Shown: positions 27,267 to 49,359 of the stretch, piece by piece | How positions within the stretch are numbered: position 1 is the stretch's first letter | How the letters are laid out: each line of letters starts with the position of its first letter | Origin: Lutimonas saemankumensis | Lineage (GTDB): Bacteria > Bacteroidota > Bacteroidia > Flavobacteriales > Flavobacteriaceae | Direction of reading: 5' to 3' | Length of the DNA stretch: 64,000 bases | Assembly: GCF_020171465.1 (NCBI RefSeq) | Contig: NZ_JAIUZR010000006.1 | Span: forward strand, 124,001-188,000 | The notes under the pieces: model-generated | Databases searched by the model: none | Told to the model about the DNA's origin: nothing | What the model saw: the letters and a program-made list of their open reading frames with translations, nothing else | Program-made: the position numbers and the translations under genes

Positions 27267-29594
27267 CTATGCTTTTTCTATTCTAACGGCACACTTTTTA
27301 AAATCCGGTTCCTTGGAAATGGGACAGAAAGCATCCAAAGTAACGTCGTTGATCATCATGTTCTCATCAAAGAAGGGTACGAAAACCTGCCCTTTGGTTG
27401 GTAAGCCACGTTCATTGATCGATGCCGGTAAAACTGTGGTTCCTCTTCTTGAAACAACCTTCACCAGTTCTCCATTTCTTATGCCATAGGCCTCTGCATC
27501 TTCCGGGTGTAATTCTACATATGCATTTGGAACTGCCTGGTGTAAGACCGGAATCCTACGGGTCATGGATCCTGTATGCCAGTGTTCGATCACACGTCCT
27601 GTGTTCAACCAGAAGGGATATTCAGTATCAGGAGATTCTGCCGGCGGTTCATAAGGCCTTTGCCAGATTACGGCTCTTCCATCCGGTTTCCCATAGAAGT
27701 GGAATTGTTTACCATTGTCACAGGCCGGATCATAGGTGGCATTAAATCTCCATTTGGTTTCCTTACCCTCAACAAACGGCCAGATGACGCCTGATCTTTC
27801 TTTTAGAACTTCCAAAGGCGCCATTCCATGTTTTTTTCCTTCATGGAATTGTCTGTATTCGTTGTAAATTTCCTCTTCATGATTGTCTTTGGAATAGGGG
27901 AACAATTCTTCATACCCCATACGTCTGGCAACCTCAATGGTCTGCCATGCATCAGGCATAGCCTGACCTGGTGGATCTACCATCTTAAACCAGTGCTGCG
28001 TCCTTCTTTCCGAATTTCCGTACATTCCATTTTTTTCAATATGCCAGGCTGCAGGAAGAATCACATCAGCAACATCTGAAGTTGGCGTCGGAAATACGTC
28101 AGATACGACGATAAATCTGTCTTCTTTTTTGGCTCCGTTGGTGAAGCGAGCCACATTAGGAAGAGAAACAAGAGGGTTCGTTACCTGGGTCCAGAGAAAT
28201 TTAATATCGCCTCTGTCAAGGGCCCTGAACATTTCCGTAGCGTGGTAAGTTGGTTTCGAAGGAATTCTTTCCACGGGGACTTTCCAGATTTTAGCCGCAA
28301 ATTCTCTGTTTTTTTCATTCATCACAACTCCTTTGGGAAGCTTATGAGTAAAGGTTCCGACTTCCCTTGCTGTTCCACATGCACTCGGTTGCCCAGTCAA
28401 AGAAAATGGTCCGTTTCCAGGTTGAGATATTTTACCTGTGAGAAGATGTATATTATAGATCAAGTTATTCATCCATGTCCCCCTTGTGTGCTGGTTGACT
28501 CCCATGCACCAGTAAGAGACTACCTTTTTATTCGGATCTCCGTATAAATTTGCCAGATATTTGATATCCTTTACAGATACACCCGATATATTTGAAACTT
28601 TTTCGGGGCTATAGTCATTCAGAAAAGTTTTGTAAGACTCAAAATCGATTTTTTCCGGTACATCATTAAAATTAAATTTATCCTCGGTTCCGTACCCAAT
28701 CTCTGTAAGTCCCTTAAAGAAATTACAGTGATCCTCAACAAATTTCTCATTGACCCATCCGTTCTTTATAATTTCAAATGCGATGGCATTGGCTACGGCA
28801 AGATCCGTTTGGGGATGGAACAGAATCGATCTGTTTGAAGCCGTACTGGACCTGCTTGTTCGTGTAGCAAAATCGATAATTTCCGCGCCCCTTTTCAATT
28901 GCTGATCAAGCATTCTTGAAAAGAGAACAGGATGCATTTCTGCCATATTATTTCCCCAGGTAATAAAGACATCCGCCTGATCAATGTCATCATAACAACC
29001 CATAGGCTCGTCGGCACCAAAGGTGGATAAAAATCCTGTTACGGCACTCGCCATGCAAAGTCTTGCATTGCAATCCAGGTTATTTGTTCCTATGGCACCT
29101 TTCATAAATTTAGAAGCCACATAGCCCTCCGGAATTGTAGACTGGCCCGAAGTATACATCGCCACGGCATCTTTACCGTGTTTTTCAATGGTCTCCTTCA
29201 TTTTTGAGGCCACCAGATCCAAAGCCTCTTCCATGCTTGTCTCAACATAAGTTCCGTTCTTCTTCACCAGGGGTTGGGTAAGTCTGTCTTCCGCATACAT
29301 ACAGATGGTCTGATGATATCCTTTTACACAGCATAAACCTTTGTTTACAGGAGAATTTGGATCGCCTTTAACTGCAACCGCTTTGTTGTCCTGCATTCCG
29401 ATCAGGACACCGCATCCCACACCACAGAACCTGCAAGGCGCTTTGTTCCATTCAAGGTCTCCCAATGATTCTGCATTTGCGATTTGTTCTTCGGCAAATA
29501 CAATTCCTGGGAAAAGTGAAGCTGCTGCTGTCATAGCAGAAACAGCGGCAATTTTCTTTAAAAATTCTCTTCTGCTTTTTACTTGTTTGATCAT
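27267..29594 (-). CDS. napA: Periplasmic nitrate reductase catalytic subunit
   Basis: A molybdenum enzyme of 775 residues that reduces nitrate to nitrite in the periplasm. The Tat signal is [16 protein letters not shown] (residues about 6-21). The [4Fe-4S] cluster motif is CRFCGVGC...GLCCVKG (Cys 54, 57, 61 and about 89). The Mo-bis-MGD ligand Cys is in [14 protein letters not shown] (about residues 171-184), and the region [16 protein letters not shown] follows. C-terminal [18 protein letters not shown] and [15 protein letters not shown] are typical of the family. It is shorter than proteobacterial NapA (about 830) but all cofactor sites are there. Confidence 0.95.
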
Positions 29595-29971: not shown

Positions 29972-31882
29972 CTACAAGGATCCCGCTTTGATTTCTTCAA
30001 CCACATCGGGATTGAGAAGCGTTGAAATATCTCCGAGATTATCTGCTTCATTGGAAGCAATTTTTCTTAGGATACGTCGCATGATTTTTCCTGATCGGGT
30101 TTTTGGCAATCCGGAAACGAACTGGATCTTATCAAGTTTAGCGATGGCACCAATCGTGGATGAAATAAGTTGATTGATTTCTGTTTTTAAATCCTCATTC
30201 GAAGTTTTGCATTCATCATATTTAGTGACAAACGCATATAATGCATTTCCTTTAACATCATGTGGAAATCCAACTACGGCACATTCTACGATATCGGTAT
30301 GCTCGTCAATTGCATTTTCAATAGGTGCAGTTCCAAGATTATGCCCGGAAACGATCACAACATCATCTACTCTTCCTGTAATTCTGTAGTTTCCCGAAGC
30401 ATCTCTATAGGCTCCATCCCCGGTAAAGTACATATTTTTATAGGCTGAAAAATAAGTGTCCTTATATCTTTGGTGATCACCATAAATCGTACGGGCTATT
30501 GACGGCCAGGGAGCTTTCATGGCCAGTCTTCCTTCTGCGGGTTCCATATTCTTCGGTTTTATCTCCTTTCCATTTTCATCCATCAAAACGGGCTGAACCC
30601 CAGGCAAAGGGAGGGTTGCAAAAGTAGGTCGGGTAGGAGTTATCCCTGCAATGGGAGATATCATCATAGCACCCGTTTCGGTTTGCCACCAGGTATCGAC
30701 GATAGGGCATTTGGTTTTTCCAATGTTGTCGTTATACCAGTGCCAGGCTTCTTCATTAATAGGTTCACCCACAGAACCCAAAACTTTTAACGAACTCAGA
30801 TCATGCTTCTCGACCAGACTCAAAGGGTGTTTTGCAAGGGCCCTGATGGCGGTTGGAGCCGTGTAAAAATGTGTTACGTTTAATTTGTCAACAATTTCCC
30901 AAAATCGACCGTAATCGGGGAAAGAAGGAACACCTTCGAACATCACCGTTGTAGCACCTGCACTTAAAGGGCCGTAAATAATGTAAGAATGTCCCGTGAT
31001 CCACCCTATATCAGCGGTACACCAGTAGACGTCATCTTTTTTGCACTGGAACACATTTTCGAAAGTATAAGTGGACCCTACCATATAACCTCCTGTTGTA
31101 TGCACCATTCCCTTGGGCCTTCCGGTAGAACCGGAAGTATAAAGTATAAATAACATATCTTCCGCATCCATCGACTCAGCTTCACAGTTGTTGTCAACCT
31201 TTTGCAGCTCGTCAAACCAGAATTTATCCCTTCCTTCAGTCATTTCAGTGGGTTCAACGGTCCTGCGATATACGATTACAGATTCCACTGACGGACAACT
31301 CTCAAGTGCCTGATCGCAAACTTTCTTCAGATTAATCGGTTTTGTACCTCTGTATACTTCATTGGCCGTAATCAGCATTTTACATGCTGAATCATTGATC
31401 CTGCTCGACAGTGCCGTAGATGAGAATCCTGCAAAAACAATGGAGTGAACCGCTCCTATTCGTGCACAGGCAAGCATCGCAATGGCCAGTTCGGGTATCA
31501 TGGGCATATATAAACACACACGATCTCCTTTTTTGATACCATTGTTCTTCAGTACATTGGCAAATCGGGAGACTTTGACATACAATTGTCTGTAAGTAAT
31601 ATATCGCGATTCTTCGTCTGGGTCATTGGGTTCCCAAATAATGGCTGTTTTGTTACCGATGGTTTCCAGATGCCTGTCCAGGCAGTTTTCTGTTATATTG
31701 AGTTTACCACCCTGAAACCATTTGACTTCGGGCTTTGTAAAATCCCATTCCAACACCTTATCCCATTTTTTCTTCCATTGAAACTGTTCGGCTACCTCCG
31801 ACCAAAACGCTTCAGGATCGGAAACGCTTTTTTCATATTTCTCTTTATACTCTTTAAAGGTGTTGATTTGCAATGGATTCAT
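29972..31882 (-). CDS. acs: Acetyl-CoA synthetase, AMP-forming
   Basis: A protein of 636 residues that converts acetate, ATP and CoA to acetyl-CoA, AMP and PPi. Family blocks: SIVFAGFSSTALSSRINDS, the P-loop-like LFILYTSGSTGRPKGMVHTTGG (about residues 250-270), WCTADIGWITGHSY, DTWWQTETGAMMIS, YFTGDGAYRD, ITGRVDDVVIVSGHNLGTAPIE and LPKTRSGKIMRRILRKIA, whose Lys is the acetylation site. Length is normal (about 635-650). An acetate-type symporter and its DUF4212 partner lie just upstream on the same strand, so uptake and activation of acetate are paired. Confidence 0.96.
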   Translation of the reverse strand: MNPLQINTFKEYKEKYEKSVSDPEAFWSEVAEQFQWKKKWDKVLEWDFTKPEVKWFQGGKLNITENCLDRHLETIGNKTAIIWEPNDPDEESRYITYRQLYVKVSRFANVLKNNGIKKGDRVCLYMPMIPELAIAMLACARIGAVHSIVFAGFSSTALSSRINDSACKMLITANEVYRGTKPINLKKVCDQALESCPSVESVIVYRRTVEPTEMTEGRDKFWFDELQKVDNNCEAESMDAEDMLFILYTSGSTGRPKGMVHTTGGYMVGSTYTFENVFQCKKDDVYWCTADIGWITGHSYIIYGPLSAGATTVMFEGVPSFPDYGRFWEIVDKLNVTHFYTAPTAIRALAKHPLSLVEKHDLSSLKVLGSVGEPINEEAWHWYNDNIGKTKCPIVDTWWQTETGAMMISPIAGITPTRPTFATLPLPGVQPVLMDENGKEIKPKNMEPAEGRLAMKAPWPSIARTIYGDHQRYKDTYFSAYKNMYFTGDGAYRDASGNYRITGRVDDVVIVSGHNLGTAPIENAIDEHTDIVECAVVGFPHDVKGNALYAFVTKYDECKTSNEDLKTEINQLISSTIGAIAKLDKIQFVSGLPKTRSGKIMRRILRKIASNEADNLGDISTLLNPDVVEEIKAGSL

Positions 31883-40175: not shown

Positions 40176-41819
40176 TTATTTTTCCCAGGAAACCAATTCA
40201 TCATTGTTATAGATATCCTTTAATTTCCTTTCATATTTTTTGGAGATTAAGCTTCTTTTTAGTTTTAACGTTGGGGTCAAAAGACCATTTTCAATGGTCC
40301 AGGGATTTTTCGATACGATGACTTTCTTAAGTCGCTGATATTCCATCACCCCTTCATTTTGCTGGTTTAATACTTTTTCAAGACTCTTTACAATTTCGTT
40401 TTTTGAAAGTGTTTTAGCCAGATGTGACAACGAAATGAGCACAAAAGGTTGAGGATAGAAGGTTCCCATTATGCATACCTGTTCGATAATTTTTAATTCT
40501 AAAAAAGGAATTTCAAGAAGGGATGGGGAAATATATTCACCTTTTGTTGTTTTAAAAATATCTTTTACACGTCCTGTAATTTTTAAATATCCGTCTTCAG
40601 TAAGCTCACCCATATCTCCCGTTAACAGGTAATCATGAACAATTGTTTCCGCGGTTTGTTTTGGATTCCTGTAGTAGCCTTTCATCAGCCAACTGCATTT
40701 CTGTTTAATCTCATTTGTTCGCTTATCAATGATTACTTCCTGTCCGGGGAATAATTTGCCAACTGAACCAATTTTGATTGCTCCTGCCGGATTCATCGAG
40801 ATCACGTTAAAATTTTCGCTCATTCCATAAGCTTCACGGATATTGATTTCTAACTTCATGAACCACCGTATAATATCAGGTGCAAGAGGTGCTGCACCTG
40901 AAAGAATTATCTCTGCATTTGACAATCCGAGAGAAGTTTTTATTTTTTTGATCAAGATTTTGTTGATAAACGGAATATTCAATAAAATATCCATTCGGTT
41001 TTGCGGTATTTTTTCTAAAATTTTAATTTGAAACTTTTCCCATATTCTTGGTACACCAAAAAAATGAGTAGGCTGTGTGTCTTGAATATTTTTCGAGAAT
41101 GACTCCAGGGATTCAACAAAGGATATCGTCCCGCCACAGTAAATGCCTCCGCATTCAATAAGTCCCCTTTCTGCCGCATGACTAAGGGGAAGATAAGAAA
41201 CGAATTTGTTACCTTTTTGGTTCAATCCCACTTCATCTGAAGCTACCTTGACGGCGGTTATTACAGAACCAAATGTATGAACAACTCCTTTGGGGTCACC
41301 AGTGGTTCCGGAAGTGTAAATAATTGTCATTGTATCTTCACAACTAATTTCAATCGGCTCAGGTATAGGGTAGCTCTGGCAAAATTCTGACCATAAGACA
41401 CACCCTTTTCGATCATGCCCATCCATTGACATAACCTTCATTTCTTTTCCTATCACCTCTTTTTGAAGTAACCAGTCTTCAGGATTCAGTTTACCTGTAA
41501 TTATAGCTTTACAACCTGAATCTTTCAAGATTTTTTTCATCGATGCCGCATTGATATTTGCATACAATGGCACCGAAATATAGCCTCCCATCATAAGTGC
41601 CAGGTCACAAATGATCCATTCTGCACAATTTGCAGATAATATTGAAATTCGATCGCCTTTTTCAAATCCTTGAGCTTTTAAGGCAGCCAGAAGTTGACGG
41701 GCTTTAATTCCGCAGTATTTCCATGAATAGTTCTTCCAGTCAGCATCTTTTGGTTGCCTGAGGAATATGTTATTTGGTGTTTGCTCTTCCCAGGACAGAA
41801 AATAATCTAAGATTGTCAT
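40176..41819 (-). CDS. AMP-dependent long-chain acyl-CoA synthetase-like protein
   Basis: An adenylate-forming ligase of 547 residues. MTIIYTSGTTGDPKGVVHT is the ATP-binding P-loop motif (about residues 166-184), then SYLPLSHAAERG, FFGVPRIWEKFQIKI, ILSGAAPLAPDIIRWF, REAYGMSEN, LLTGDMGELTEDGYLKITGRVKDIFKTTKGEYISPS and the A10-like C-terminal Lys in ENGLLTPTLKLKR. These place it with long-chain fatty-acyl-CoA synthetases (FadD15/ACSL-like, short form of about 550-600 residues). It is probably co-transcribed with the SDR downstream. Confidence 0.9.
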   Translation of the reverse strand: MTILDYFLSWEEQTPNNIFLRQPKDADWKNYSWKYCGIKARQLLAALKAQGFEKGDRISILSANCAEWIICDLALMMGGYISVPLYANINAASMKKILKDSGCKAIITGKLNPEDWLLQKEVIGKEMKVMSMDGHDRKGCVLWSEFCQSYPIPEPIEISCEDTMTIIYTSGTTGDPKGVVHTFGSVITAVKVASDEVGLNQKGNKFVSYLPLSHAAERGLIECGGIYCGGTISFVESLESFSKNIQDTQPTHFFGVPRIWEKFQIKILEKIPQNRMDILLNIPFINKILIKKIKTSLGLSNAEIILSGAAPLAPDIIRWFMKLEINIREAYGMSENFNVISMNPAGAIKIGSVGKLFPGQEVIIDKRTNEIKQKCSWLMKGYYRNPKQTAETIVHDYLLTGDMGELTEDGYLKITGRVKDIFKTTKGEYISPSLLEIPFLELKIIEQVCIMGTFYPQPFVLISLSHLAKTLSKNEIVKSLEKVLNQQNEGVMEYQRLKKVIVSKNPWTIENGLLTPTLKLKRSLISKKYERKLKDIYNNDELVSWEK

Positions 41820-41966
41820 GATTTACTGTTAATAATCCTTTTAATTCAAGATACTTGGAAAGAAGTATCGATTGAGCCGCAAAGATTATATCGTAACAAT
41901 AAAGATAATTTATGAGCAATTTATCACCAATGATCGAGATCATGAAATATTTTGATACGTATCAAT

Positions 41967-43649: not shown

Positions 43650-45704
43650 CTATTCTGTCATGATCCGGGCATCAACAGCCGTTATGCCTTTTTCATTAAG
43701 AATAAGGGGGTTTAAATCCAGTTCCGTGATTTGAGGGTTTTGAAGCATCAGATCTGAGACCAGCTCAATCGATTTACGGAACGCTTCCAGGTTACAAGGC
43801 GCTTCACCCCGAAGCCCGTTAAGAATAGGAAAAATCCGCAACGATTCAATCATTTTTCCGGCTTCTATGTTGTCAATAGGTGCGAGGGACTGAGTACGGT
43901 CATTTAATGCTTCCACATATATTCCCCCAGCGCCGCACATGATCAGGGGAGGAAACCCTTCTTCTCTTTTGGCGCCCACAAAAACCTCTTTTCCGTCGAC
44001 CATTTCCTGAATCAAAACCCCTTCTGCTGCATTGATCTTCATCAGTGAAGAAAAATTTTCAAAAAGCTCCTGCTTGTTTCTTACATTGAGAATAACACCT
44101 TTTTCATCCGTTTTGTGCAAAGGGCCAATTATCTTCTGCGCAACCGGAAAATTAATCACTTCACAGCAATTTTCAAGTTCTGATTTCGAGCGCACTATAT
44201 GTTGCTTGGCAGCAGGTATACCTATTACTGACAGAACCTTAAAACATGCCTCCGGGGCAAGAAATCCTTTTTTTTCTGATGCAATCAAAGAAGAAACAGC
44301 CCTGAATTCATTTTTTTTGGCAGCTGATTCCTGGGAATCGAAGAAATCAACTCCCGCAATTCGAGATAGACAGGAGCCAAACAAATACTCATCATAAAAA
44401 GCAATATTCCCTTTTTCAATAAAGAACTGGATTTCTTTTTTGACGTTGACCACTGAAGGCATAATCGCAAAAATGGGTTTTTTGCATTGAGACCTCATTT
44501 CATGAATGACCTCGTAGGGTTTTTTCACGCTACCCAGGCCAGGGCTGCCAAAGATCACTGCGATGGCATCAATATCTTTGACCTCATTTTCACAATATTT
44601 GACAACTTCTCTAAGTTGATCCGCATTGCCCGTGGCTAACATATCAATGGGATTACCGGTAGCTGCCCCTGGATAAAGCATTGAAGCCAGGTTATTTTTG
44701 TGCTCTTCTGAAAGGTCAGGTACTAAAAGGTTGTTTTGGGTCAATACATCCGTTAAAATTACAGCTGGCCCCCCTGCATGGGTTATGATGCCAATACTTT
44801 TAGGAACAGATTTTAAAGGTTGAAGAATCGCCCCGATGGTTACCAGCTCATACCTGCTCTCACAAACTACAATTCCTGCCTTCTTAAACAGGGCTTGAAT
44901 AAAAACTTCGGGATTTGCCATTGCCCCTGTATGCGAAGCTGCTGCATGCTGGCCTTTTCTTGTTTTGCCGGCTTTCAGGGCTACCAGGGTACAGCCTTTC
45001 TTTTTTAATGACAGCGCATGTTTTAAAAGTTTTTCAGGATGTTTCAGGCCTTCTATATAGAGTAATTTTACCCTGCTGCTTTCTTTCGGGGTATAAGAGA
45101 TATCCAAATATTCCAGTATTTCTTCCACGCCTATCTGGGCACTGTTTCCAACCGTGTAGAGCCCGGAAAAGGATAATCCGATCTGTTGTGCGGCTTCAAT
45201 GGTAAATACGGCCGTTGCACCCGAGGCAGAAATAAAATCGGCCCCGTATTTTGTTATTTTTGGGACGGGTCGTGTAAAAATTCCGGCAAAATTTTCATTG
45301 ATCATCCCTATATTATTCGGTCCTAGAAGACTTCCACCTGCTTCATCAATCACTTTAGTGATTTCCAGTTCCATTTTTTTTCCTTCTTCATTGAGTTCTG
45401 CAAATCCGGCCGAGTAGATCATAAACCCTTTGGTGCCTTTACGCTCAACGAGTTCCAATACGGAAGACAGTATTTCTGATGCCGGAATTGCAAAAATTGC
45501 CAGATCAGTTTGAGGTAATTCTGTTACATCTGAGAATGCTCTGATTCCCTGAACGATTTTCTTTTTTGGGTTTACCACAAAAAGGTCTCCGGGAAAAGGT
45601 TGATCTATAAGGTTTTTTAGCACGCTTCCTCCTATATGATCAATATGTTCAGACCCTCCGATGACGGCAATACTTGACGGATTGATAAGTTTTGAATGTA
45701 ACAT
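43650..45704 (-). CDS. ADP-forming acyl-CoA synthetase, fused alpha-beta (Acd)
   Basis: A fused enzyme of 684 residues that converts an acyl-CoA, ADP and phosphate to acid, CoA and ATP, so it conserves energy. The CoA-binding Rossmann domain starts PSSIAVIGGSEHIDHIGGSVLKNL, the middle has AAASHTGAMANP with the phospho-His of the family, then IITHAGGPAVILTDVL, and the ATP-grasp beta part follows (VLIQEMVDGKEVFVGAKREEGFPPLIMCGAGG, ITELDLNPLILNEKGITAVDAR). The ATG at 45704 was preferred to 45752, which lies inside the promoter. Next to aminotransferase and IorAB it probably works on aryl-acetyl-CoA or branched acyl-CoA, but acetyl-CoA is equally possible. Confidence 0.9.
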   Translation of the reverse strand: MLHSKLINPSSIAVIGGSEHIDHIGGSVLKNLIDQPFPGDLFVVNPKKKIVQGIRAFSDVTELPQTDLAIFAIPASEILSSVLELVERKGTKGFMIYSAGFAELNEEGKKMELEITKVIDEAGGSLLGPNNIGMINENFAGIFTRPVPKITKYGADFISASGATAVFTIEAAQQIGLSFSGLYTVGNSAQIGVEEILEYLDISYTPKESSRVKLLYIEGLKHPEKLLKHALSLKKKGCTLVALKAGKTRKGQHAAASHTGAMANPEVFIQALFKKAGIVVCESRYELVTIGAILQPLKSVPKSIGIITHAGGPAVILTDVLTQNNLLVPDLSEEHKNNLASMLYPGAATGNPIDMLATGNADQLREVVKYCENEVKDIDAIAVIFGSPGLGSVKKPYEVIHEMRSQCKKPIFAIMPSVVNVKKEIQFFIEKGNIAFYDEYLFGSCLSRIAGVDFFDSQESAAKKNEFRAVSSLIASEKKGFLAPEACFKVLSVIGIPAAKQHIVRSKSELENCCEVINFPVAQKIIGPLHKTDEKGVILNVRNKQELFENFSSLMKINAAEGVLIQEMVDGKEVFVGAKREEGFPPLIMCGAGGIYVEALNDRTQSLAPIDNIEAGKMIESLRIFPILNGLRGEAPCNLEAFRKSIELVSDLMLQNPQITELDLNPLILNEKGITAVDARIMTE

Positions 45705-45739
45705 GGTAAGGCCAAAAAGTTTTATGTAAAATACGTATA

Positions 45740-45769
45740 AAAAAGTAGTCATAAACTGACATTTATCAA
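45740..45769 (-). promoter_or_regulatory. Promoter of the ADP-forming acyl-CoA synthetase gene
   Basis: On the minus strand TTG (45769-45767), 19 bp, TACTTTTT (45747-45740, one mismatch to TAnnTTTG). It lies about 35 bp upstream of the ATG at 45704 and excludes the longer frame starting at 45752. Confidence 0.55.
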
Positions 45770-45824
45770 TTCTTTTCGTTGTAAAAAGTCCTTACTTTGA
45801 ATAGCCTAATGTAAGTTCTAAGCG

Positions 45825-47042
45825 ATGTATGAATTCTCAAGATCGGTCAATTCGATGCATTCCGAAGATATTAAGCAATTGATGAAACAATCCTCGCGAA
45901 GCGGATTGATTTCTTTTGCAGGAGGAATGCCTAATAACGATCTTTTTCCCATTAAGGAAATTGATGAGATATACAATAATTTAAGCGATGACATAAAGAA
46001 ACTTTGTTTTCAATACGGCCCAACAACAGGGTATCCTCCATTGGTGAGCTCTCTTCATAGAATGATGCTAGGGAAAGGGATGCAATCAGGAAAAGATAAA
46101 ATTCTAATTACTACAGGCTCTTTACAGGCTATAAGTATTATCACACAGGAATTTGTGAATGAAGGAGACCTTATTTTAACAGAGAATCCCTGTTTTGTGG
46201 GGGCCATTTCGGTTTTTGAAACCTTTGGGGCAAAAATGGTGAGCGTTCCAATTGATGAAAATGGAATAATAATCGATAAGCTCAGGGAAGTTATTTCCCA
46301 GCAGAAAACAAAACCTAAATTTTTATATATAACTCCAAATTTTCACAATCCTGCAGGAATTATTTATTCTCAGGAAAGAAGAAAACAACTACTTGAAGTA
46401 TTGTCAGGGACGGATATCATTTTAATTGAGGACGATGCTTATGGAGATCTCTATTTCAAAGATGAATATAAGCCCTTGACCGGATCAATAAAGGCCATGG
46501 CCTCACCGGATGTTGAGGTAATTTACACGGGTTCATTTTCAAAGATTCTGGGTCCGGGATTTAGACTTGGATATATGGTTGCCTCCCCTGAAATTTTTGA
46601 AAAAGCAGAATCAATTAAACAGGCACAGGATGCCTGTACCTCAAATTTCACTCAGATCCTTGCAAATGAATTTGTTTCCAAGGGTTATCTTGAAAAATAT
46701 TTGGTATTTCTTAGAAAAGAATACACGGAAAGAAAAGAAATTCTCCAAAGAAACTTAAAACAATACATGCCAGCTGAGATTAGCTGGATAGAGCCAAAAG
46801 GAGGTTTCTATGTGTGGCTCAAATTACCTGCTCCTTTAAGAGCAACTCCTGTTTTTAATGATTGTCTGAAAAAGGGTGTGGTATTTGTTACCGGAAGGAC
46901 TTTTGATCCCAATAATGTCAGAGACGATCATATAAGGCTTTCCTTCTCCAATATGCCAAAGCGAGATATTGGAAAAGGAATTAAATTGCTCTCTAAAGTC
47001 ATCAAAAAACATATGGAACCGAAAACAGTTCAGTTTCAGTAA
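45825..47042 (+). CDS. PLP-dependent aminotransferase (LysN/ArAT-like)
   Basis: A class I fold aminotransferase of 405 residues. SRSGLISFAGGMPNNDLFP at the N-terminus, FQYGPTTGYPPLVSSL, TTGSLQAI, PNFHNPAG (Asn/Pro near the cofactor), LIEDDAYGDLYF (Asp to pyridine N), and YTGSFSKILGPGFRLGYMV with the Schiff-base Lys. This branch contains 2-aminoadipate, aromatic and branched-chain aminotransferases and is often shared with MocR regulators, but there is no DNA-binding domain here. Its neighbour genes make an aromatic or branched 2-oxoacid route plausible. It overlaps the convergent iorB gene by 7 bp at the stops. Confidence 0.9.
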   Translation: MYEFSRSVNSMHSEDIKQLMKQSSRSGLISFAGGMPNNDLFPIKEIDEIYNNLSDDIKKLCFQYGPTTGYPPLVSSLHRMMLGKGMQSGKDKILITTGSLQAISIITQEFVNEGDLILTENPCFVGAISVFETFGAKMVSVPIDENGIIIDKLREVISQQKTKPKFLYITPNFHNPAGIIYSQERRKQLLEVLSGTDIILIEDDAYGDLYFKDEYKPLTGSIKAMASPDVEVIYTGSFSKILGPGFRLGYMVASPEIFEKAESIKQAQDACTSNFTQILANEFVSKGYLEKYLVFLRKEYTERKEILQRNLKQYMPAEISWIEPKGGFYVWLKLPAPLRATPVFNDCLKKGVVFVTGRTFDPNNVRDDHIRLSFSNMPKRDIGKGIKLLSKVIKKHMEPKTVQFQ

Positions 47043-47629
47043 ACAAATTCTGTAAAATCTTTTGCTTTTTTCTGCCCAAGCCTGAAGGCTTCTATATTCT
47101 TTTGGCGAACTTTTTCGCTTTTTTCTCTAAAGAAGTAATTGATTGCTGCTTCAATTTTTTCTTCTTTGACAGGTAATTTTGAAGAAGCGGCTCCCAGAAG
47201 AACCATGTTGCAGATTTTTGAATTTCCAAGATCTTTTGCACAGCTTTTGGCATTGATGATCATATGATGCCAGTGTGTTTTGATTTGCTTGTAAAGTTCG
47301 TGTTTGTCAGGGTAGTTCACAATGTTTTCAAAAGTACTTGAGTCGGTAATGATCCAGCCCTTTTTCCTTAAAGAAGGAATGTGTCTTAATAATTCCATAG
47401 GTTCGGCGGAGAGAATCAGGTCAGTTTCTCCTTCCGGTATAAGATCAGAATAGATCTGTTTATCAGCTATCCTGATGTGACATTGAACCGCGCCTCCGCG
47501 CTGGCTCATGCCATGAACCTCAGACTGTTTAACAAATAAATTGTCATTAAGTGCAGCGATGTCGATAATTGAAGCCAGGGTGAGGATCCCTTGTCCTCCT
47601 ACTCCTGATAAGATAATATTGAAGGTCAT
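47036..47629 (-). CDS. iorB: Indolepyruvate oxidoreductase subunit beta
   Basis: A protein of 197 residues of the gamma-type 2-oxoacid:ferredoxin oxidoreductase domain: FNIILSGVGGQGILTLASIIDIAALNDNLFVKQSEVHGMSQRGGAVQCHIRI (about residues 3-54), then SAEPMELLRHIPSL and KICNMVLLGAASSKLPV. It pairs with the alpha subunit encoded 9 bp upstream to decarboxylate aryl- or branched-chain 2-oxoacids to acyl-CoA. Length is normal for IorB (about 190-200). Confidence 0.9.
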   Translation of the reverse strand: MTFNIILSGVGGQGILTLASIIDIAALNDNLFVKQSEVHGMSQRGGAVQCHIRIADKQIYSDLIPEGETDLILSAEPMELLRHIPSLRKKGWIITDSSTFENIVNYPDKHELYKQIKTHWHHMIINAKSCAKDLGNSKICNMVLLGAASSKLPVKEEKIEAAINYFFREKSEKVRQKNIEAFRLGQKKAKDFTEFVY

Positions 47630-47638
47630 AATTAGGTT

Positions 47639-49252
47639 TTAGTTAAGAGAGGCTAATTTTTGTTTAATCTGTTCTTTGCTTTCCCTGCTTAATCTAACGC
47701 AGGGCCTTTCCGATATGATAACCGAGACACCTTTATATTTGATTTCTTTTTTGAGTATCTCTACATTCGATTCAAAGTTTTTCTTTAGTGGAACGATTTG
47801 TTTTAGGTGATCGGCATGGACTCCTAATCCCAGACAAATTTCTTTGAGTCTTCCTGTTGCGGATGATTCCTGTGCGCCTGTCATGGCTACGGCAGAATTA
47901 TCTGAAATTACGACCGTGATGGGAGAATTGTCATTGACGGCTTCCAATAATCCTGTCATTCCGGAATGTGTAAAGGTTGAATCACCTATTACTGCAATGG
48001 CATGATCAAGTCCTGCATCTGCGCCTCCTTTGGCCATTGTAATAGATGCGCCCATGTCAATGAGTGTATTGATCGTATTCATTGGCGCCAGGGCTCCCAG
48101 AGCGTAACATCCGATATCTCCAAAAACCTTTTTTTGACCAATTGAAGGAATCAATTCCTGAATGACCTTGAAGAGATCAATATGTCCGCATCCTTCACAG
48201 AGTTGAGGAGGGCGACCAACAACAAGTTCGGATACCGGTATGGGTTCCTTTCTGTATAGTCCTATGGCCTTGGCAACAAGGTTTGGTGTCAATTCTCCTG
48301 TTTCCGGAAGGTGCCCTGTAAGTTTTCCGGTAATCTTTCTTGAATTGCCAAAATAATCACTAAGTATCTCTTCTACAAGCGGATATCCTTCCTCAACTAC
48401 GAGTACTTCGTCACAATCCTTATAAAGTTTTTTAAGCTTTTTCTTAGGAATCGGGTATTGTGAGATTTTGAGCAAAGAGAAAAATTCAAGATCATCAGCC
48501 AGATTTTCCATGACATAATTATAGCCAATACCACAAGCAACTATTCCAAGAGACCTGTCTTTGTGCTGTCCCAATTTGTTCCATGGAGATTTTTCAGAGG
48601 CCTTTAGTAAGAGGTCTCCTTTATTTACCAGTTTTTTGTATTGCTTTTTGGCGTTGGCAGGAATCAAAGCAAAGCGATCGGTATTAACCGGTAATTGAAT
48701 TCCGTTCTGGCATCTTCTTTCTTTGAAAATCACTCCGGATTTCGAGTGGGATAAGCGCGTTACCAGGCGCAAGAGAACTGGAAGCTGCAATTCTTCTGAA
48801 AGATCAAAAGCATAATGCATCATGTTATAGGCTTCCTGCTGATTAGAGGGTTCAAGGATAGGGACCTTTGCAAACTTCCCGTAGAACCTCGAATCTTGCT
48901 CGTTTTGTGAAGAATGCATTGATGGGTCATCCGCTACTACGACAACCAGACCTCCATTTATTCCTGAAACCGCCATGTTCATAAATACGTCAGACGCAAC
49001 ATTCAGTCCAACATGTTTCATGACGGTTAGCGCTCTTTTACCACAATAGGACATTCCCAGAGCAGCTTCCATGGCTGTTTTTTCATTTACGGACCAGGTA
49101 GCATGTAAACCAAGTTCTTTTGCAATTTTAGAATTTTGAATATACTCTGTTATTTCCGTTGAAGGTGTGCCCGGATAGGCATAAACCCCGGAAATACCAG
49201 CATCTATAGCACCTTGAGCCAGCGCTTCATTGCCAAGAACTAAATTTTTCAT
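47639..49252 (-). CDS. iorA: Indolepyruvate oxidoreductase subunit alpha, without ferredoxin tail
   Basis: A thiamine-diphosphate enzyme of 537 residues. The alpha part has YAYPGTPSTEITEYI and WSVNEKTAMEAALGMSY (about residues 23-70), the TPP-binding part has RPPQLCEGCGHIDLFKVI, GDIGCYALG, GASITMAKGGADAG and IGDSTFTHSGMTGLLEAVNDNSPITVVISDN. The protein ends SERPCVRLSRESKEQIKQKLASLN, whereas usual IorA proteins (about 600 or more residues) continue into a C-terminal two-cluster ferredoxin domain that is absent here. The ATG at 49252 was chosen over 49324, which has no homologous sequence. Confidence 0.9.
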   Translation of the reverse strand: MKNLVLGNEALAQGAIDAGISGVYAYPGTPSTEITEYIQNSKIAKELGLHATWSVNEKTAMEAALGMSYCGKRALTVMKHVGLNVASDVFMNMAVSGINGGLVVVVADDPSMHSSQNEQDSRFYGKFAKVPILEPSNQQEAYNMMHYAFDLSEELQLPVLLRLVTRLSHSKSGVIFKERRCQNGIQLPVNTDRFALIPANAKKQYKKLVNKGDLLLKASEKSPWNKLGQHKDRSLGIVACGIGYNYVMENLADDLEFFSLLKISQYPIPKKKLKKLYKDCDEVLVVEEGYPLVEEILSDYFGNSRKITGKLTGHLPETGELTPNLVAKAIGLYRKEPIPVSELVVGRPPQLCEGCGHIDLFKVIQELIPSIGQKKVFGDIGCYALGALAPMNTINTLIDMGASITMAKGGADAGLDHAIAVIGDSTFTHSGMTGLLEAVNDNSPITVVISDNSAVAMTGAQESSATGRLKEICLGLGVHADHLKQIVPLKKNFESNVEILKKEIKYKGVSVIISERPCVRLSRESKEQIKQKLASLN

Positions 49253-49359
49253 TGATAGATGATATAAATCTTTTGAAAAGTAAATGTATAAGTTACGTGT
49301 GCTAAATTTTATGATTTTCATCATGGTTGTTTGAAAATCTTAATTAAATATGAATCCAG

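Follow-up and report, generated by a model that had tools for sequence, protein, structure and literature searches.

The stretch of DNA analyzed here (the window) comprises 64,000 nucleotides of the genome of Lutimonas saemankumensis (contig NZ_JAIUZR010000006.1, positions 124,001 to 188,000), and its positions 43650–49252 harbor the genes for a fused ADP-forming acyl-CoA synthetase (ACD), an aminotransferase (AT), and the beta and alpha subunits of indolepyruvate oxidoreductase (IorB and IorA). The locus raises the question of whether a member of Flavobacteriaceae, a family whose marine representatives are mostly seen as aerobic polymer degraders, could gain ATP from aromatic amino acids, and how such a route would be switched on. 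An initial annotation of the sequence had proposed an energy-conserving pathway of the archaeal type, operating at low oxygen and in line with a nearby nitrate reductase. A literature search found no paper linking these enzyme names with marine Flavobacteriaceae. The present analysis supports, with a probability of roughly 0.6, a catabolic module, probably induced at low oxygen, in which aromatic amino acids are converted to aryl acids with formation of ATP under co-activation by a regulator of the Crp/Fnr type. What is new here is a palindrome, TGAY-N4-RTCA, placed 23 nt from a −7-like promoter element upstream of both AT and iorA and acting bidirectionally for AT and ACD.

Gene Content and Catalytic Residues of the Cluster

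The genes named in the initial annotation were confirmed by domain and profile matches, and the outer coordinates of the cluster were correct. ACD (43650–45752, minus strand) contained the domains CoA_binding_2, Succ_CoA_lig, Ligase_CoA_2, and ATP-grasp_5 (PF13380, PF13607, PF19045, and PF13549), all above their cut-offs, and its alignment indicated that position 45704 is probably the conserved start. The closest solved relative was 8WZU, a 4-hydroxybutyrate-CoA ligase of Nitrosopumilus; the phosphate-carrying histidines of the Nitrosopumilus enzyme (Nmar_0206) are reported to be His256 and His535 (PMC11494057). His274 and His546 of the window ACD, numbered from the long start, aligned with these two residues, and both columns were invariant in 12 rows. 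With the domain set and both phosphohistidines present, the proposed ADP-forming type of the synthetase was borne out. One archaeal ACD (ACS2) is reported to accept phenylacetyl-CoA and indoleacetyl-CoA (PMC3942289). Aryl-acetyl-CoA is the putative substrate of the window enzyme, which would work in the ATP-forming direction.

AT (45825–47042, plus strand) matched Aminotran_1_2, with 1x0m and 3aov (aminotransferase II homologue/PH0207) as the best solved relatives and the 2-aminoadipate transaminase of Thermus as the next. It resembles the solved KAT-II/LysN-type enzymes, a group with a broad substrate range. IorB (47036–47629, minus strand) passed the indolepyruvate model NF005324 with 247 bits (cut-off 222). 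IorA (47639–49252, minus strand) matched TIGR03336; its residues Cys352, Cys355, Cys382, and Cys518 were invariant in a 10-row alignment and, to judge from related oxidoreductases, presumably bind a cluster beside the thiamine diphosphate. No genome in the phylum sample (247) or the family sample (397) exceeded the TIGR03336 cut-off. In the phylum sample, most of the strong Bacteroidota matches stopped ahead of the C-terminal ferredoxin domain, and hence the curated cut-off misses the phylum; the divergent IorA proteins of genomes G160 and G657, which extend to model position 592, are exceptions.

AT and iorB are convergent with an overlap of 7 bp, and AT and ACD are divergent. ACD, AT, and iorB–iorA are three transcription units and not one operon.

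Conservation and Co-occurrence

Counting that of the window, 14 of 22 genus genomes carried ACD; in all 14 it was a divergent neighbor of AT, a 202-codon open reading frame intervening once. IorA–IorB adjoined AT in 11 of 11 genus loci whose fetched stretch reaches that far (from 12 further loci). The family sample comprised 397 genomes, in which IorA was counted at E ≤ 1e-60 and ACD at E ≤ 1e-100. IorA was present in 26 genomes (one of them, G657, divergent, with 300 bits), ACD in 39 (three weak or partial), and both in 23, lying within 3 kb on the same contig in 17. ACD accompanied IorA in 23/26 genomes as against 16/371 genomes without IorA (Fisher p 7e-24, uncorrected for kinship). Across the order, ACD was rare (6/296 genomes at E ≤ 1e-100). 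IorA occurred without ACD in G657, G721, and G828; both genes were present in non-adjacent positions in G652 (20 kb apart) and on separate contigs in G668, G746, G879, G882, and G894. AT belonged to the cluster throughout the window's genus and at loci L051, L236, L237, L247, and L248, the adjacent ACD being fragmented in L248. Loci L052, L147, L148, and several more had the cluster without AT. The gene order around the cluster was identical in G562, of the same family, and Gramella sp. KN1008 (L051). The three enzyme types of an archaeal-type fermentation are thus present, linked, and conserved. The initial annotation had named beforehand a lack of conservation among relatives as grounds for giving up its proposal, and the proposal withstood this test, with ACD and AT neighboring in 14/14 genomes and IorA and ACD adjacent in 17.

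A Palindromic Operator Shared by Three Promoters

The palindrome TGAY-N4-RTCA (the box) was one of the few conserved blocks in 13 aligned AT–ACD intergenic regions. It had 12 matches in the window as against 5.6 expected, and 1 of 100 shuffles reached as many as 12. The copy between the divergent ACD and AT genes (TGACATTTATCA, 45757–45768) is kept upstream of AT in 18 of 18 loci, and a further copy (TGATGAAAATCA, 49312–49323) lies upstream of iorA, where a box was present in 25 of 34 Flavobacteriaceae-type loci; the window is included in both counts. The spacing between the box and a −7-like element of the pattern T[AT]nnTTT[GA] was 23 nt. Upstream of AT, a mismatch-free element stood exactly 23 nt away in 17/18 loci (in the window TTACTTTG, 45792–45799, plus strand), the called start in L143 being too near to score. 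Upstream of iorA, the element was mismatch-free at 23 nt in 21 of 25 loci (in the window TACATTTA, 49281–49288, minus strand) and had one mismatch at 23 nt in the other four. On the ACD side, it was found 22–23 nt from the palindrome in 13/13 loci, nine mismatch-free and four with one mismatch, among them the window (45727–45734, minus strand, 22 nt). By this geometry, the divergent promoters of AT and ACD share a single copy of the palindrome. Another pattern, CTGAYNTTTRTCAN{18,28}TTNTTTGA, had no match in the window, was found to be a misfit to the real promoter, and was superseded by the box-plus-spacing scan.

The sigma-A −7 box of Flavobacterium psychrophilum, TAnnTTTG, is reported to span −12 to −5 (PMC9723704). 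With the spacing of 23 nt, the center of the palindrome would fall at −41.5, a value that follows purely from its distance to the −7-like element. Activators of the Crp/Fnr type occupy −41.5 at class II promoters, and the half-site TGAT-N4-ATCA is the core of FNR-type sites. The arrangement resembles FNR/DNR/Crp-type class II regulons in its palindromic operator at −41.5, by geometry, and in its nosZ and hydrogenase targets (see below). It differs from them in that the outer T/A of the FNR site (TTGAT-N4-ATCAA) is not kept and that two divergent promoters can share a single box.

Two boxes, exactly 22 nt apart, were also observed at 41931–41942 and 41953–41964, upstream of an AMP-forming acyl-CoA synthetase-like gene (40176–41819, minus strand), and box pairs of the same spacing were present in L137 and L146. 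This gene is a possible further member of the regulon.

Further Targets in the Genome

The spacing learned from the window promoters, which are excluded from the pooled count, was applied to two samples of the same genome, each of 20 stretches of 20 kb (400 kb). The two are not equal, as the first was chosen partly around earlier matches and the rest of it arbitrarily. Outside the window, the first sample contained box plus element eight times at 23 nt and three times at 22 nt, with 15 cases at the remaining spacings between 5 and 44 taken together. The 11 matches at 22–23 nt came from 50 boxes; five control palindromes in the same 400 kb gave 0, 2, 0, 0, and 0 matches (from 14, 61, 8, 17, and 9 boxes). 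Pooled, there were eight cases at 23 nt and four at 22 nt as against 23 across 38 other spacings. The regulon is small and clustered, since the pooled count at 22–23 nt was 12 and the second sample contributed just one.

Behind one box lies a nos cluster coding, in this order, for a fasciclin-like protein (by reading), a cytochrome c, a Sec-type NosZ (above cut-off), and NosD; the box separates the cluster from a divergently oriented Rrf2 regulator gene (L262:12718-19541; G000:C5:275001-295000). A Sec-dependent NosZ together with cytochrome c and NosD suggests that the window's genome encodes N2O reduction. The hydrogenase-related targets, which include two [NiFe]-hydrogenase units, were a [NiFe]-hydrogenase small subunit and HypB (both above cut-off), HypA (87.5 bits, cut-off 88.1), and a NuoEF/HoxF-like gene, which follows a box whose element has one mismatch and precedes HoxU-like and VhuA-like genes. 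In that stretch (L274:11972-19668; G000:C5:200001-220000), the small subunit is divergent from HypA, NuoEF/HoxF-like, HoxU/VhuG-like, VhuA-like, and HypB genes, and boxes stand ahead of several units. The genome seems to encode hydrogenases of two kinds. Among further targets were a VOC protein, a prephenate dehydratase at a distance of 223 nt, and the acyl-CoA ligase of the window with its two boxes. A further target, likewise preceded by the box, codes for an oxidoreductase-like protein that carries a cyclic-nucleotide-binding domain at its C-terminus and, by reading, a FAD-type N-terminus (L271:16761-18509; G000:C4:300001-320000). With nosZ and hydrogenase genes among the targets, the signal is probably oxygen or nitrogen oxides.

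Related Clusters and Exchange of the Ligase

The iorA neighborhoods analyzed were 20 hand-picked from strong IorA matches of the phylum plus two of the same class; the iorA tree was a quick tree of 36 rows and the ACD tree a FastTree of 112 rows. A PaaK-like AMP-forming ligase lay near iorA in 10 of the 36 rows, none of them within the Flavobacteriaceae-type clade, and of these ten, nine also had an AT and six an ACT-domain protein nearby. The 16 Flavobacteriaceae-type rows formed one clade (support 100) next to the PaaK-linked clade (99), with a joint support of 88, and nine rows lacked all such partners. The PaaK-like ligase tested against TIGR02155 scored 606 bits (cut-off 646.3). The iorA-iorB-paaK-ACT-aminotransferase clusters of gut Bacteroidota are similar to the window, with IorA mostly 55–60%, IorB 44–52%, and AT 44–49% identical and IorA equally short. 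They differ in having the AMP-forming PaaK-like ligase where the window has ACD, and in gut and other Bacteroidota loci the box was upstream of AT in 0/10 and of iorA in 1/20. These observations suggest that the PaaK-like ligase was replaced by ACD in the Flavobacteriaceae lineage around a kept iorAB core.

Among 80 named loci retrieved with the ACD alignment, a VorB-type oxidoreductase (at least 64% identical to that of L056) was near ACD in 16, of which 14 carried another class I/II aminotransferase. L110 had a distant VorB type, L051 and L052 had iorAB, and L066 had a fused form; the remaining 60, many of them short contigs, showed no such oxidoreductase. The window's ACD clade thus adjoins 2-oxo acid oxidoreductases repeatedly (VorB, iorAB, and fused IorAB), and the 24 iorAB-linked rows of the ACD tree require two label changes. 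The Bacteroidales ACD–VorB loci share with the window the ACD clade and the proximity of aminotransferase, 2-oxo acid oxidoreductase, and ACD; the oxidoreductase is, however, of the 3-methyl-2-oxobutanoate type, and the aminotransferase is a different family member. In L066 (551-6587), an ACD of the window's clade is directly followed by a fused IorA–IorB, which keeps the ferredoxin domain and matches the whole IorA model, and then by an aminotransferase. In another Bacteroidota family, L173:2617-6989 (G140), one of the 36 rows, carries iorAB beside an unrelated ACD type (beta-alpha order, 27% identity) and is a second, independent iorAB–ACD pairing.

The comparison with archaea made in the initial annotation holds for the enzyme types: the aromatic amino acid fermentation of Thermococcales (Pyrococcus aminotransferase, indolepyruvate oxidoreductase, and ACS2) is reported with the same three and with ATP formed from acyl-CoA (PMC3942289). 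It had missed the nearest kin, namely, the gut Bacteroidota iorAB and AT with an AMP-forming PaaK-like ligase. Unlike Thermococcales, the window host is a bacterium with respiratory genes, the ACD subunits are fused, IorA is without the ferredoxin domain, and the genes are adjacent under one operator type. The most plausible reading of the cluster is a low-oxygen, ATP-yielding variant of the archaeal pathway, built around an iorAB core of the Bacteroidota type.

Probable Direction of the Pathway and the Proposed Nitrate Link

PaaA/PaaC (phenylacetyl-CoA oxygenase) was found in none of the 22 genus genomes, and catabolism of phenylacetyl-CoA via Paa was rejected on this ground. PaaK-family matches were present in 6/22, none above cut-off, and at E ≤ 1e-40 the window's genome had no match. 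Prephenate dehydratase was present in 19/22, so phenylalanine can be made de novo, and 4-hydroxyphenylpyruvate dioxygenase (HPPD) was above cut-off in 17/22. As phenylacetyl-CoA has no oxygenase route and phenylalanine can be made de novo, release as the acid with formation of ATP would be the likeliest fate. The lack of PaaA/PaaC together with the presence of prephenate dehydratase favors oxidation to aryl acid and ATP over aryl-acid assimilation, and the module would probably act on aromatic substrates in the oxidative direction. Rnf was considered as the outlet for reduced ferredoxin and rejected, the match in the window's genome being sub-threshold (24.3 bits); it was above cut-off in 3/22 genus genomes, strongly in two of these.

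The window also encodes NapA (27267–29594) and, as the initial annotation had noted, an AMP-forming Acs (29972–31882). NapA was present in 7/14 genus genomes with ACD vs 3/8 without (Fisher p 0.67), no TGAY-N4-RTCA box was found upstream of nap, and nap lies ∼14–17 kb from the cluster wherever both share a contig. A specific nitrate coupling was rejected, as co-occurrence did not exceed expectation and nap has no box, and the proximity is read as plain synteny. Of the earlier claim of ATP formation at low oxygen, the low-oxygen part gains support from the shared, anaerobic-looking regulatory box, and the link to the nitrate reductase is dropped.

Proposed Mechanism and Alternative Explanations

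In the proposed module, AT would transaminate an aromatic amino acid to the aryl-pyruvate, which IorAB would oxidize with CoA to aryl-acetyl-CoA and CO2, reducing a low-potential carrier. ACD would then convert aryl-acetyl-CoA to the aryl acid, forming one ATP via the two phosphohistidines. In the presence of oxygen, the same 2-oxo acid could enter the O2-dependent homogentisate route, which would be available since HPPD is present. A Crp/Fnr-type activator would induce AT, ACD, and iorAB jointly with N2O reductase and the hydrogenases; joint switching is proposed because a palindromic operator of the same type is centered at −41.5 in all three promoters. A wider statement is put forward tentatively, with somewhat less than an even chance of being right: some Flavobacteriaceae would have a Crp/Fnr-type activator that responds to oxygen and uses a class II operator in both directions, one palindrome lying at −41.5 of two divergent promoters. 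This activator would shift aromatic amino acid breakdown from the oxygen-dependent homogentisate route to an arylacetate route that depends on ferredoxin and yields ATP, and would control N2O reductase and hydrogenases along with it. ACD, occupying the place that an AMP-forming PaaK has in related anaerobes, would reverse the energy sign of the pathway.

Several observations weigh against the catabolic module. IorA scored 521 bits against TIGR03336, below the cut-off of 650.9, matching model positions 1–542 of 595; it has no C-terminal ferredoxin domain, its last cysteine being Cys518 of 537. As an outlet for the carrier, Rnf had no match above cut-off in the window's genome. The box was missing upstream of iorA in 9/34 loci, and the second genome sample yielded a single case of box plus element at 22 nt and none at 23 nt. 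The targets GldA-like ABC protein, DoxX, prephenate dehydratase, and acyl-CoA ligase are no anaerobic markers. A search by motif only, which covered the window plus 40 stretches of 20 kb and thereby about a quarter of the genome, found no Crp/Fnr gene.

The module could run in reverse for anabolism or salvage, with ACD activating external aryl acids at the expense of ATP, IorAB carboxylating aryl-acetyl-CoA to aryl-pyruvate, and AT making the amino acid. Both ACD and indolepyruvate oxidoreductase are reversible enzyme types, iorAB of gut Bacteroidota adjoins acid-activating PaaK-like ligases, and an anabolic, carboxylating use of the oxidoreductase is reported for methanogens (PMC6737245 and PMC3462420). 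This is nevertheless unlikely: with prephenate dehydratase in most of the genus, phenylalanine need not derive from aryl acids, activation would suit an AMP-forming ligase, which is not linked here, its place being taken by an ADP-forming one, and carboxylation requires electrons of very low potential, with Rnf not above cut-off in the window's genome. The same chemistry on branched-chain or other 2-oxo acids instead of aromatic ones is also improbable. It would fit the 16/80 ACD loci with VorB-type (3-methyl-2-oxobutanoate) oxidoreductases, the breadth of KAT-II/LysN-like aminotransferases, and the IorA score below its cut-off; however, IorB passes the indolepyruvate model, and the iorA clade neighbors the PaaK-linked clade, whose PaaK-like ligases indicate phenylacetyl-CoA.

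Recognition of the box by a Crp-like regulator that responds to carbon or energy limitation, and not by an oxygen or NO sensor, is rather unlikely. The nosZ, [NiFe]-hydrogenase small subunit, HypA, HypB, and diaphorase-like targets are typical of anaerobic regulons, and the core TGAT-N4-ATCA is of the FNR type. In favor of such a regulator, some targets are catabolic or housekeeping genes, the search for a Crp/Fnr gene came up empty in the sampled stretches, and Crp/Fnr homologues in Flavobacteriales metagenome-assembled genomes are reported as predicted carbon sensors (PMC8510549). Plain synteny without any pathway is very improbable. The genus does retain much of the neighborhood (GT2, RecX-like), and the cluster occurs without AT in several genera, but the set is kept in other settings (L051, L236, L237, and L247), ACD is present in 23/26 genomes with IorA vs 16/371 without it, and the genes have one operator type at a fixed spacing in common.

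Implications

If the catabolic module is real, a conserved and co-regulated oxygen-free route from amino acids to ATP would revise the view of how Flavobacteriaceae live in particles and sediments, and aryl acids would be supplied by marine Flavobacteriaceae. Judging from the replacement of the PaaK-like ligase by ACD, the ligase may indicate which way a reversible pathway runs, which is testable. The operator would offer a concrete handle on an anaerobic regulon, of which few have been mapped in the phylum.

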